Assembly: GCA_016787225.1 (NCBI GenBank)
Contig: JAEUUY010000033.1
Coordinates: 1-35,032 of the forward strand
Origin: Chitinophagales bacterium
Lineage (GTDB): Bacteria > Bacteroidota > Bacteroidia > Chitinophagales > JADJOU01
DNA: 35,032 nt
Reading direction: 5' to 3'
Part shown: piece by piece, positions 4,961-19,034 of the stretch
Position numbering within the stretch: the first letter of the stretch is position 1
How the letters are laid out: every line of letters starts with the position of its first letter
Translations under genes and position numbers: made by a program
The notes under the pieces: generated by a model
What the model was told of the DNA's origin: nothing
Databases searched by the model: none
Seen by the model: only the letters and a program-made list of their open reading frames with translations

Positions 4961-5018
4961 AGAAATTACTATAAATAAAATGTTGAATTTTAGGTTTTAT
5001 TTTTTACAAGAAACAGAC

Positions 5019-5148
5019 TAATACCGTAAGCGTATTAGTAATAGTCCAATGTCGCATGGCTCATTGCACTAAACAAAAACAGCTACGGCATTTACCATAG
5101 CAAGGTTTTAAAATGGGTTGGACTATTTTAAAACCGCTATTGGTATAA
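5019..5148. repeat. 130-bp dispersed repeat, copy 1 (MITE-like, structured)
   Basis: This 130-bp block is present again at 18905-19034 with 125/130 identities and no indels. Ends are TAATACC and GGTATAA. Left and right ends form an imperfect inverted repeat: ATACC / AGCG / AATAGTCCAA on the left match the reverse complement of the right end with the same 3- and 7-nt spacers (21 of 29 positions). It can also fold as an outer stem closing three hairpins: 5042-5071 (TAGT-C-CAATG with CATTG-C-ACTA), 5082-5101 (GCTA-C-GG with CC-A-TAGC) and 5104-5135 (13-bp stem GGTTTTAAAATGG, one G-U, 6-nt loop). No protein is encoded and no target duplication is visible. It lies 24 bp past the tadA stop. Confidence 0.9.
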
Positions 5149-5172
5149 CACTTGAATGTTAAAAGCAAATGA

Positions 5173-5616
5173 CTATGCCCTCTTATCCATAAAAAAATCC
5201 TTGATTAGTTTTGCGCAGGTATCTTTTTCAATGCCAGCAATCACCTCCGTTTTAGGATGGAGCAGTGAAGGTTTATATAAGGTAAAACCACATTTATCTT
5301 CTGTAGCACCGTATACCAGCCCTCCTATCTGTGCCCACCGAATAGCACCTGCACACATAGCGCATGGCTCTATTGTTACGTACATAATACAATCTTTGAG
5401 AATTTTTGAATTTAGATAATTAAAGGCACTAGTTAATGCGATAATTTCTGCGTGTGCTGTAGCATCATTTAGCCGCTGTGTTTGATTATAGCCTTTAGCT
5501 ATAACTTGATTCTGGGAAATAATAACACATCCAATTGGAACCTCATCTTCTTCATAGGCTTTCAATGCTTCCTTGATAGCCAGTGACATAAAGTGGCTAT
5601 GGTTCAATTCAACCAT
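5173..5616 (-). CDS. tadA: tRNA adenosine(34) deaminase
   Basis: This 147-aa cytidine/deoxycytidylate-deaminase-fold enzyme converts A34 to inosine in the tRNA-Arg anticodon, allowing ICG to read CGU, CGC and CGA. Zinc and proton-shuttle residues are visible: HAE at 55-57 (H55 ligand, E57 catalytic) and PCAMC at 84-88 (C85, C88 ligands), with EVPIGCVI near residues 25-32. Length is typical. The start is 17 nt after the stop of the outer-membrane protein gene, so the two are probably cotranscribed. Related deaminases (for example guanine deaminase) share the fold, but PCAMCAGAIRWAQIGGLVYG fits TadA best. Confidence 0.93.
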   Translation of the reverse strand: MVELNHSHFMSLAIKEALKAYEEDEVPIGCVIISQNQVIAKGYNQTQRLNDATAHAEIIALTSAFNYLNSKILKDCIMYVTIEPCAMCAGAIRWAQIGGLVYGATEDKCGFTLYKPSLLHPKTEVIAGIEKDTCAKLIKDFFMDKRA

Positions 5617-5632
5617 CTTATGAAAAGAATTA

Positions 5633-6436
5633 TTATTTCATTAAATAAAATCTAATCCCTAATCCATAGTGAAATGAAGCTGGATTATAATGAGGAACAG
5701 GCTCTGGATTGCTAACAAAATAAGGCAATGTATATCCACCATGTAAATTAAAAATGGTGTATTCTGAAATTTTTAGACCAATGTTTAATCTTGGTGTAAA
5801 ATTTACATAATTTCGATAGATAAAATTAGTAATGACATCCGAATAGCCTGGGTGTTGAATAGTGAATTCATTGTATCCAATTCTTAATTCTGGGTCTAAT
5901 AAAATAGCCCTTCCTAACGGAAAATAAGCGCCTACACATATCCCAGCACCCCACTCTTTAAGACTGGCCGCATCGTATTCAATATTATTATATTGGATCA
6001 CTTGATACTCATGAGTAGACATTATTTTATGTCGAAAATAAGGTCCTATATGAAATCTTCTGGATATGTCAAAATTAAGCCCTAAATGTCCATAAATATT
6101 GATGGTTGTAATATCAGCATCGCTCGGCAAAGCTCCAAACTCTACAACGGTAGACATTTTCATTGATTCACTTCGGGGGTTTAAAAAAGATTTGCCATTA
6201 TATTCAGAAGCTGAAGCACTAGAGCTCGATTCATCACTGCTTGATGGGTCATCTTTTTTAGAGGCTTCACTAGATGTTTTTTTCTCCTTTGTAGATTTGG
6301 AGTCCTCTTTTTTAACCTCTTTACTTGGCTCTTTTTTTACAACTGGCGCAGTAGAAGTGGATCTTCTGTTCTGTCCATATCCAAGAGAAACAATAAGTAA
6401 TCCAAAAAACAAGGCTATTACTCTTACCATAATCAT
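5633..6436 (-). CDS. Outer-membrane beta-barrel protein with Ser/Lys-rich linker
   Basis: 267 aa. A signal peptide (VRVIALFFGLLIVSLGYG) is followed by a very polar low-complexity stretch, about residues 23-80, made of Lys/Glu/Ser runs (KKEPSKEVKKEDSK, SSSDESSSSASAS). From about residue 85 the sequence alternates aromatic and polar residues, as in small porin-like barrels (VVEFGALPSDADI, HLGLNFDISRRFHIGPYF), and ends in GLGIRFYLMK. Function unknown. Two ATGs are possible (6436 and 6430); the second gives a conventional MVRVIALF signal. A promoter with both -33 and -7 elements lies just upstream. Inferred location: outer membrane, with the linker in the periplasm. Confidence 0.8.
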   Translation of the reverse strand: MIMVRVIALFFGLLIVSLGYGQNRRSTSTAPVVKKEPSKEVKKEDSKSTKEKKTSSEASKKDDPSSSDESSSSASASEYNGKSFLNPRSESMKMSTVVEFGALPSDADITTINIYGHLGLNFDISRRFHIGPYFRHKIMSTHEYQVIQYNNIEYDAASLKEWGAGICVGAYFPLGRAILLDPELRIGYNEFTIQHPGYSDVITNFIYRNYVNFTPRLNIGLKISEYTIFNLHGGYTLPYFVSNPEPVPHYNPASFHYGLGIRFYLMK

Positions 6437-15553: not shown

Positions 15554-17653
15554 ATGGCTAGACTTTTTATTTGTTTCTTATGTACTATTAGTTTCACATT
15601 ATACAGTCAAAATCTCGATGAGACGAACGGCTACATAGATCGAGAACAGAGAAGACTCGACAGTTTTGATGGGGTTGTAGACGGGAAAATAGAGATGAAT
15701 AAAAAAGATGAGCAAAACATACTTTACAAGCAGATATATTTTAAGCTCGTAGATTCATTTCAAAATAGAGTAAATCAGAGTCCGAGTCTGCAAGCTTATC
15801 AGAGAAGAAATTTACTTTATGGAATGTACATGACGCTATCCGATATAAGCGGGAAAACATATAGTAATATTCCTCTATACTACCAGAAGCTTTTTCAGCA
15901 TGCCATGGGTTTAATCAGAGCTTCTGAAAATAAGGATGTTATTTCCTATCTTATTACTGATCCATTGTATTCCGTAAAAAATATTTACTTCTATAAATAT
16001 GATTTAGTGGCAAAGGACTTCCTTATTTCTTCATGCCAGACTTATCCTGAAGAGGTACTAAAAGCGTTTGCGAAATACAGCGATAGACCATATAAAGATA
16101 CGGTAGTGGAGGTGTGTGCTATAAAAGCCCCTAACGTAGCAAAAAATTATCTGATTGGCGAAACAGGCATTAAACAGATACTCATGACCAATCCCAGCCC
16201 TAATATTATGGGTATGCGTGGTTTCTTCGCTCAATACAATATTTTGTCTAAAGGAATGGTACTTGTAGATGATATCGTGGAAGGAAATATAACCATAGAA
16301 GAAGCAGATTCTATTTCACGTAATAAGCGAAAATTTCTACGCACTATGATCAAAATACGAAATAGTGATTATGTGATGGCCGAATACTCACTGGACGAAC
16401 AGCTCAAGGCAACAAGTCTGGAATATGTGCGAATCATGAATGAATTACACGATGAAAAAGATCCCAAAAAGAGATTTGCCTGTATCGATGATTTTAATTG
16501 GAAAGAGTTATATACTTTATTAGTTTATAGTGAAGAAGAAATCTTTACTTCCACCTTCAATGGCGTTTTTGAGCGTTTAATTTTTAGAATCAATCAAGAT
16601 AAGATCAGTGGAGACAAAATGCTGGAAAAGCTAAAGTATAATAAGTTCAGAACTTTCATAAAAATATGCGCGAATTTTAATAAACTGGGCGATTATCTAA
16701 AAACTATGCCTAAGGATCAATCGAGAATGCTAATAGGTAAGTTTACTAACAATTTAGATAAGAATGAAGGAGACCTTAGCTCTGCTATCAATGTAGCAAA
16801 TGCCTTTAGCAGTATCAATGATTCCTTATTGCTGAGCTATATGAGAGAAAACATAGACATGGAATACAAAAGAACTCAAAGAGAAGAAAATAGAAACGGT
16901 ATCGCCATTTATGGATTGCTTAAAAGTCTATTTGTGGTACCCGAAAGAAAAGATGCTCTATGGTTCCAATCCATGGCTATGAAGTATAAATTGCAGCCAA
17001 TAAATCAAATCGATAGTGGTGCATTATTTGGTATGGATAAGGTGCATCGTCAGGTACACTTTTTCTACGATGATGAAGATGGAGAAGCATCCTTTGCCTC
17101 CTTCATTACTACATTTTCCACTCCAAACTACAGAATTACAAGAAGAAAAAACCATGTCACTATCGAGTCCACAAAGGGTAAGAAAGTAGCCATATACGCC
17201 AATCATCCAAAATCTGAATTAGAAGGACAGGCAGACCTTATAGCCGTCATGGATTCTTTTAAAAAAGATATCCAGTTATTCGTGCATCGAGGACATAGCT
17301 ACTATGCTATGAATACCATAGATCATATACCACCTAAGACCAAGATAGTATTCCTAGGCTCATGCGGAAGCTATCACAATATTCATGAGGTATTGAGTAG
17401 ATCAGAAAACGTACATATTATCTCTTCTAAACAAATTGGAACCATGGGTGTTAATAATCCACTGTTGTTTCATATAGCTGAAAATGTTCGAAGTGGTAAA
17501 GATTTAGTATGGAGTGATATCTGGATTAAAACTGGTAAAACAATAGCCGCCAACAAAGATGCAATGGAAAAATTCAGGGATTATGTAGCCCCTGATAAAA
17601 ATCTTGGAGCTATATTTCTACAAGCATTTACTCGATTGGTAACGGAGGAATAG
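15554..17653 (+). CDS. Secreted 699-aa protein with possible clan-CD-like His/Cys pair
   Basis: A signal peptide (MARLFICFLCTISFTLYSQ) predicts export. Residues about 25-520 are helical and match no family I know. From about 530 the sequence looks like an alpha/beta domain: a hydrophobic strand then VHRGHSYY (H578, G580, H581), a second strand KIVFLGSCGSYHNIHEVL (C604), then VHIISSKQIGTMGVNNPLLFH. A strand ending in H-G and a second strand ending in Cys is the arrangement of clan CD cysteine peptidases (caspase, gingipain, CHAT, separase). The His-Cys spacing of 23-26 is short for that clan, so this is a hypothesis. Its stop codon overlaps the GTG of the mannanase by one base, implying translational coupling. 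Confidence 0.8.
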   Translation: MARLFICFLCTISFTLYSQNLDETNGYIDREQRRLDSFDGVVDGKIEMNKKDEQNILYKQIYFKLVDSFQNRVNQSPSLQAYQRRNLLYGMYMTLSDISGKTYSNIPLYYQKLFQHAMGLIRASENKDVISYLITDPLYSVKNIYFYKYDLVAKDFLISSCQTYPEEVLKAFAKYSDRPYKDTVVEVCAIKAPNVAKNYLIGETGIKQILMTNPSPNIMGMRGFFAQYNILSKGMVLVDDIVEGNITIEEADSISRNKRKFLRTMIKIRNSDYVMAEYSLDEQLKATSLEYVRIMNELHDEKDPKKRFACIDDFNWKELYTLLVYSEEEIFTSTFNGVFERLIFRINQDKISGDKMLEKLKYNKFRTFIKICANFNKLGDYLKTMPKDQSRMLIGKFTNNLDKNEGDLSSAINVANAFSSINDSLLLSYMRENIDMEYKRTQREENRNGIAIYGLLKSLFVVPERKDALWFQSMAMKYKLQPINQIDSGALFGMDKVHRQVHFFYDDEDGEASFASFITTFSTPNYRITRRKNHVTIESTKGKKVAIYANHPKSELEGQADLIAVMDSFKKDIQLFVHRGHSYYAMNTIDHIPPKTKIVFLGSCGSYHNIHEVLSRSENVHIISSKQIGTMGVNNPLLFHIAENVRSGKDLVWSDIWIKTGKTIAANKDAMEKFRDYVAPDKNLGAIFLQAFTRLVTEE

Positions 17654-18915
17654 TGAGATTGTTATTCTTTCTTCTATGCCTCACTTCCAAAGAAAATATA
17701 GTTTCGCAATCTTCCTTTGTAAAAACAAATGGAATAACTTTTACTATTGATAATAATCCTTACCGCTTCATAGGAACTAATTATTGGTATGGTGGATACC
17801 TCGCCGCTGATAATACGAATAATGGCTTTCAAAGGCTTTGCAAAGAATTAGACTTTTTAAAAAATCATGGAATTAATAACTTAAGGGTTCTATTTTCTGG
17901 AGAAGGAGATGACACGTATCCATATAGAATATCCCCTTCTGTGCAGGAAAAACCAGGAAAGTATAATGAAGCTATCCTTCGAAGCTTTGATATATTTCTC
18001 AATGAAGTTTCAAAACGAAATATGAAAGTAGTGCTGGTCCTCAATAATAATTGGGAATGGAGCGGAGGCATGGGACAGTATCTAGAATGGGCTAAATACG
18101 CTAACCCAATTTTACCAAAAACATCGAACTGGGATTGGGATAATTACTGCAACTACATTTCACAATTTTATGATTGTGATAGTTGTAAATTTTGGTATAT
18201 GAAATGGATAGAAAAAGTCGTAACTCGAAAGAACTTTATCAATAAAAAAAGATATATTGATGACAAAACGATTATGGCGTGGCAGCTAGCGAATGAACCG
18301 CGACCCATGAAAAAGTCTGCAATTCAATCATATAAAAATTGGGTAAAAGAAATCTCCTCTTACATAAAATCTCTTGACTCTCATCATCTAGTCAGCATAG
18401 GTGTAGAAGGAATTATTGGTACAGCTATGGATACTGCATTGTTTGTCGAAATTCATTCCCTATCTTCAATAGACTATGCTACTATACATCTTTGGCCTAA
18501 GACCTGGCAATGGTATAATGGGGAAACCAAGCATTCCACTACAGATACAACTATAGAAAGAACTAAAAACTATATTGAGTTGCATAGGAATTTATGTCGC
18601 AAAATTCTAAAGCCTTTAGTCATTGAAGAATTTGGTCTGCATAGAGATAGTAACTCTTTCAAGGAAAGTTCTTCTACCTGGCATAGAAATCAATACTATC
18701 AATATATTTTTAATATTGGAAGACAAAATAATATTGCTGGATATAATTTCTGGGGTGCATTTGCAAATAGAGACAAGAGAATGAAATCAGAATTTTGGCA
18801 TAAAAGTTTACCCTATGGTGCTGATCCTCCACAGGAAGAACAAGGATTATATGGTATATTTCAATCAGACTCGAGTACTTGGCATTTAATAAGGCAAAAT
18901 ACATTAATACCGTAA
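17653..18915 (+). CDS. Secreted GH5 endo-beta-mannanase-like glycoside hydrolase
   Basis: 420 aa from a GTG that overlaps the preceding TAG, with a GGAGG six bases upstream. A signal-like start (MRLLFFLLCLTSKENIVSQ) precedes FTIDNNPYRFIGTNYWYGGYL, the usual opening of GH5 mannanases. The acid/base is E215 in WQLANEPRP and the nucleophile E326 in VIEEFGLHRD; ATIHLWPKTWQWY lies between them. GH5 subfamily 7 (mannan endo-1,4-beta-mannosidase) is the best guess, with other GH5 specificities possible. No type IX sorting domain is seen. The last residues and stop (LIP-stop) are encoded inside the 130-bp repeat, so the original C-terminus may have differed slightly. Confidence 0.88.
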   Translation: MRLLFFLLCLTSKENIVSQSSFVKTNGITFTIDNNPYRFIGTNYWYGGYLAADNTNNGFQRLCKELDFLKNHGINNLRVLFSGEGDDTYPYRISPSVQEKPGKYNEAILRSFDIFLNEVSKRNMKVVLVLNNNWEWSGGMGQYLEWAKYANPILPKTSNWDWDNYCNYISQFYDCDSCKFWYMKWIEKVVTRKNFINKKRYIDDKTIMAWQLANEPRPMKKSAIQSYKNWVKEISSYIKSLDSHHLVSIGVEGIIGTAMDTALFVEIHSLSSIDYATIHLWPKTWQWYNGETKHSTTDTTIERTKNYIELHRNLCRKILKPLVIEEFGLHRDSNSFKESSSTWHRNQYYQYIFNIGRQNNIAGYNFWGAFANRDKRMKSEFWHKSLPYGADPPQEEQGLYGIFQSDSSTWHLIRQNTLIP

Positions 18916-19034
18916 GCGTATTAGTAATAGTCCGATGTCGCAAGGCTCATTGCACTATACAAATACAGCTACGGCATTTACCATAGCAAGGTTTTAAAAT
19001 GGGTTGGACCATTTTAAAACCGCTATTGGTATAA
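18905..19034. repeat. 130-bp dispersed repeat, copy 2 (same orientation as copy 1)
   Basis: Differs from copy 1 (5019-5148) at only 18934, 18943, 18958, 18964 and 19010. The change at 18934 turns an A-U pair of hairpin 1 into G-U, and the base at 19010 makes the 13-bp hairpin 3 perfect where copy 1 has G-U; the other three lie in loops or linkers. The left end overlaps the mannanase 3' end and supplies its stop codon; the right end lies 13 bp past the cutC stop, so the element fills the whole convergent gap. No flanking target duplication is visible. Confidence 0.9.

Follow-up and report, generated by a model that had tools for sequence, protein, structure and literature searches.

The 124-bp repeat that occurs twice in the window, a 35,032-nucleotide stretch of DNA from a Chitinophagales bacterium (contig JAEUUY010000033.1), is most likely a non-autonomous DNA transposon (MITE) mobilized in trans by a DDE transposase of the IS630 family. 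We assign it to the MITEs because it shares its ends and a TWA target duplication with autonomous insertion sequences (ISs) of the IS630 family. The initial annotation had offered two readings, a MITE-like mobile element, possibly multi-copy, or a structured RNA under pairing selection. The former is borne out by target-site duplications, nested insertions, about 50 copies across two related uncultured Bacteroidota and autonomous ISs with matching ends, while the latter does not hold, as detailed below.

As first described, positions 5019-5148 and 18905-19034 are equal in length, alike in orientation and identical at 125 of 130 positions. The five differences, given as copy 1 to copy 2, are A>G (5048/18934), T>A (5057/18943), A>T (5072/18958 and 5078/18964) and T>C (5124/19010). 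Alignment of all copies, together with the nested insertions, sets the boundaries of the element proper at 124 bp with the form TACC...GGTA, which places both copies on the + strand at 5022-5145 and 18908-19031. The outermost three bases on each side of the 130-mers are duplicated target, reading TAA at 5019-5021 and 5146-5148 around copy 1 and at 18905-18907 and 19032-19034 around copy 2. The imperfect terminal inverted repeat proposed initially is real: a motif search finds TACC-N15-ATAGTCCAA at 5022-5049 on the + strand, with the layout of the IS ends described below, and again at 5118-5145 on the − strand. No ORF of at least 80 amino acids lies inside the 124 bp. The upstream ORF 17653-18915 takes its stop codon (18913-18915) from copy 2; the orthologue in a congeneric genome, where the element is missing, ends in a different C-terminus, indicating that the insertion replaced the last residues.

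A sequence search returned 42 matches in the element's own genome, about 31 of them full length and spread over many contigs, and 23 in the congener, about 20 of them full or nearly full, which agrees with the multi-copy nature suspected at the outset and puts the likeness of the two window copies far outside chance. The congener was the only carrier among 60 relatives, and no copy was found in the viral contigs and plasmids searched. Both window sites are without the element in the congener; this presence and absence between relatives and the multi-copy state are as expected of a MITE. The intergenic DNA at these empty sites is too diverged for base-level reading, and the nested insertions were used for the duplication instead. 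The consensus of the element is identical in the two genomes, with a mean divergence of the copies from it of 2.3% (own genome) and 0.8% (congener), although host DNA within the genus is about 67-79% identical where alignable. This points to a recent spread of the element, which may have passed from one host species to the other. Of 30 own-genome copies, none interrupts an ORF of at least 100 amino acids: 12 are found between convergent genes, 12 between tandem genes and three between divergent genes, with three at a contig edge or in an unresolved context. The preference for convergent over divergent sites (P = 0.035) is compatible with selection against insertion into promoters, and the MITE could possibly act as a terminator. 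At one locus (L014) the target TAA coincides with the stop codon of the gene.

The triplets flanking 47 copies are TAA/TAA in 25, TTA/TTA in 15, GAA/GAA in three, TGA/TGA in one and unequal in three; the three GAA/GAA copies apparently lie in one duplicated locus and are not independent. Equal triplets at 44 of 47 copies compare with a mean of 20 and a maximum of 32 in 10,000 shuffles. Two nested insertions, one of a related-family copy (~70% identical) into a 130-mer (L055) and one of a 130-mer into a related-family copy (L063), allow the duplication to be read, since other copies show what the host sequence looked like before insertion. The duplicated target is exactly TAA in L063, while the overlap in L055 is at most TAATA and compatible with TAA. 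The element thus duplicates 3 bp, TWA, and not the TA that is usual for IS630/Tc1/mariner and is the best-known target duplication of IS630. REP/REPIN-like and IS200/IS605-like elements, on which an HUH (Y1) transposase acts via single-stranded hairpins, make no target duplication. Such an origin would suit the two adjacent hairpins of the repeat and the palindromic units that also occur alone, but it conflicts with the equal flanking triplets and with ends that match those of DDE-transposase ISs, and we consider it extremely unlikely.

Searching with the end pattern of the MITE revealed several MITE subfamilies in its own genome and in the congener. Across the class, TWATACCNNTNNNNNNTNNNNAATAGTCCAAT is present in 15 of 395 Bacteroidia genomes compared with 0 for the reversed control, and many of the matches represent complete 100-150-bp MITEs flanked on either side by the same triplet, TAA or TTA. 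A match in Parapedobacter (L094) falls within a coding sequence and is probably fortuitous. On another stretch of the host genome (L072, contig C6, near 5000-5770), a relative of about 109 bp belonging to subfamily F is followed by an apparent truncated IS1-type zinc-ribbon gene and then by a 130-mer. Three MITEs with the same type of ends in one genome (L137, L151 and L159 in G220) carry an inner inverted repeat like TCGACTCCGCTCGAAA / TTCGAGCGAAGTAGA, and a similar piece occurs in L135. At L002 and L025 part of the left end is repeated in inverted orientation directly before the element, creating an extra palindrome (ATTGGACTATTACTAATAC in L002). Partial matches covering positions 1-79 or 75-130 of the repeat were considered as possible flanks of a transposase, but those read (L054, L058) adjoin other genes and represent decayed or solo copies.

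The class-wide end motif TWATACC-N14-AATAGTCCAAT led to complete ISs of about 1.16 kb in other Bacteroidia. The first (L166, the same DNA as L141) measures 1161 bp between TAA/TAA, and its transposase as query identified a second (L167) of 1162 bp between TTA/TTA. Both ISs share with the MITE the TACC-N15-(A/T)TAGTCCAA ends, the spacing of the motifs and the TWA duplication, with identity confined to the ~28-bp end pattern. A third IS630-type IS (L196, TTA/TTA), found with the L167 protein as query in a genome of the host's order, has more divergent ends. ORF2 of the ISs matches the IS630 transposase model NF033545 with 119 bits (cut-off 100) and PF13358 with 85 bits, and the transposase is of the IS630 type with D-D-E spacings of 78 and 31 residues. 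L166 and L167 each have an A7 run close to where ORF2 overlaps ORF1 in the −1 frame, which suggests programmed frameshifting. As the partner ISs also duplicate TWA, the 3-bp target marks a subgroup. Relatives of the transposase (12 genomes) and the end motif (15 genomes) co-occur in five genomes, with a hypergeometric P of ~3e-5 that ignores shared ancestry. From these shared features we infer that a transposase of the L166/L167 type mobilizes the MITE in trans.

ISs sharing the termini, for which the initial annotation had proposed to look, exist in other genera and were not found in this genome. Neither PF13358 nor the L167 transposase had a match in the element's own genome (G000), where assembly gaps could hide a partner, and the same searches yielded no intact partner in the congener (G001). 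A partner in the MITE's own genome would be helpful and is not strictly required, as it may have been lost or left unassembled. The congener does contain a broken IS630-family gene without TACC ends (L165, contig C80), which is unrelated and shares 28% identity with the L167 transposase across the portion that aligns. 3-bp TWA/TAA duplications are typical of PIF/Harbinger, and together with the missing host partner they might indicate a MITE of another DDE family (IS5-group or PIF/Harbinger-like) whose resemblance to IS630 ends is convergent. We regard this as unlikely, given that the end motif with the same spacing and the TWA duplication all recur in both L166 and L167, and that the search of G000 for PF01609 transposases yielded just one gene, which has no TACC ends. 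At L085, where a PF01609 transposase stands close to a TACC end and was considered as a partner, the gene turned out to be just the neighbor of a small MITE.

The minimum-energy fold of the element consists of two adjacent hairpins on the + strand, at 5022-5090 (69 nt) and 5093-5145 (53 nt). The outer stem closing three hairpins that had been proposed initially is not the preferred fold: the stem bases of both hairpins pair with a probability above 0.99 compared with 0.0004 for the outer stem, which costs 4.4 to 4.7 kcal/mol if forced. Pairwise alignment showed each palindrome to be built from one end of the element and, opposite it, an inverted copy of that end: the left end in palindrome 1, where the copy forms the 3' arm at 5062-5090 on the − strand, and the right end in palindrome 2. 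The autonomous ISs likewise carry an inverted end copy, directly before the transposase start codon, at the site equivalent to the internal one of the MITE, whose left half thus appears to be an IS left end. In the IS, the inner inverted site may serve for autoregulation. Palindrome 2 also occurs alone as copies of ~54 bp elsewhere in the genome (L054, L056 and L057), of which L056 has TAA on both sides. In one congener copy (L050, contig C133) the loop of palindrome 2 is inverted from GGGTTGGACC to GGTCCAACCC, with a similar change in L061 (contig C5 of G000), which points to recombination of the two arms or strand switching between them.

Hairpins of this kind could also belong to a structured RNA family, regulatory or small, that is incidentally multi-copy and kept by base-pair selection. 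The predicted fold is indeed strong on both strands (z of −4.5 and −5.9), and pairing is conserved between subfamilies, with covariation of palindrome 1 among 21 subfamily sequences at 0.281 compared with 0.109 for shuffled and at most 0.087 for slid alignments. Within the family, copies do not keep base pairs by selection: among 66 distinct changes, 32 break a stem pair and 10 keep one, against 37.9 and 12.4 expected by chance, and 24 fall at unpaired sites, a mild excess over the 15.7 expected. Changes yielding G-U are about as frequent as those yielding A-C, at 10 and 10 within the family and 14 and 10 between subfamilies, and RNA pairing is accordingly favored on neither strand. A search of Rfam at gathering and relaxed thresholds gave no match, and the target duplications and nested insertions indicate transposition. 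We therefore consider a structured RNA very unlikely. The pairing between subfamilies is attributable to paired inverted transposase-end sequences in the DNA, and pair breaking at chance level, the equality of G-U and A-C outcomes and the inverted loop of L050 all indicate that the symmetry of the palindromes is better explained at the DNA level. Covarying hairpins in a repeat call for caution, as they can reflect paired transposase sites and not RNA.

For the MITE we propose the following route. An IS630-family DDE transposase supplied in trans would bind the TACC ends, move the element and insert it at TWA, duplicating three bases. The MITE would correspond to the two ends of such an IS minus its gene, and probably arose by internal deletion. 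Its left half would comprise the terminal repeat plus the internal inverted copy that precedes the transposase start codon in the IS, and its right half the right end together with its inverted counterpart. With each half built from an end and its inverted copy, the hairpins would be paired inverted end sequences in DNA, and the inverted sites probably function as transposase binding sites.

Compared by description, the element resembles RUP (repeat unit of pneumococcus), a gene-less, intergenic, multi-copy repeat of ~107-124 bp with ends like those of an IS630-family IS and proposed to be mobilized by IS630-Spn1 (PMC2229807, PMC3049150). Unlike RUP, which inserts at TA, it duplicates TWA, resides in Bacteroidota and consists of two adjacent palindromes with four end-like sites. 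Correia elements/NEMIS of Neisseria are also short MITEs with base-paired ends and a target duplication that can affect neighboring genes (PMC2229807, PMC10969869), but they differ in host and size. CIR repeats of Caulobacter and Brucella likewise have two inverted-repeat arms and a short linker, whereas they are without shown terminal repeats and carry a GANTC motif (PMC2229807). The partners L166, L167 and L196 carry the transposase of the IS630 family (NF033545, PF13358) but duplicate TWA, not TA. TAA target duplications are reported for Fot-type pogo elements of the fungal type, which are eukaryotic, longer and of another transposase branch (PMC7386202). The wider IS630-Tc1-mariner group thus offers a precedent for a 3-bp target. 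Our literature searches returned no description of the 124-bp repeat or of such MITEs in Bacteroidota.

Overall, the repeat is a new MITE family of a known type, not a new RNA, and is unusual in its 3-bp TWA target and doubled ends. The analysis places a previously unannotated repeat in a family of mobile elements for which autonomous partners exist, and TWATACC-N14-AATAGTCCAAT provides a simple motif for finding such MITEs and ISs in Bacteroidota. Bacterial MITEs end-matched to an IS630 element are few; RUP, the case named in PMC2229807, was according to that paper the sole bacterial repeat with ends assigned to an IS at the time. The element's two departures from the usual IS630 pattern, its 3-bp target and its doubled inverted ends, are testable. 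More speculatively, and as a tentative view, a Bacteroidota-wide subgroup of TWA-target IS630 elements may have been the repeated source of double-palindrome MITEs that would spread between species without their transposase and in which the doubled inverted ends would have been selected as better transposase substrates or as operator competitors.
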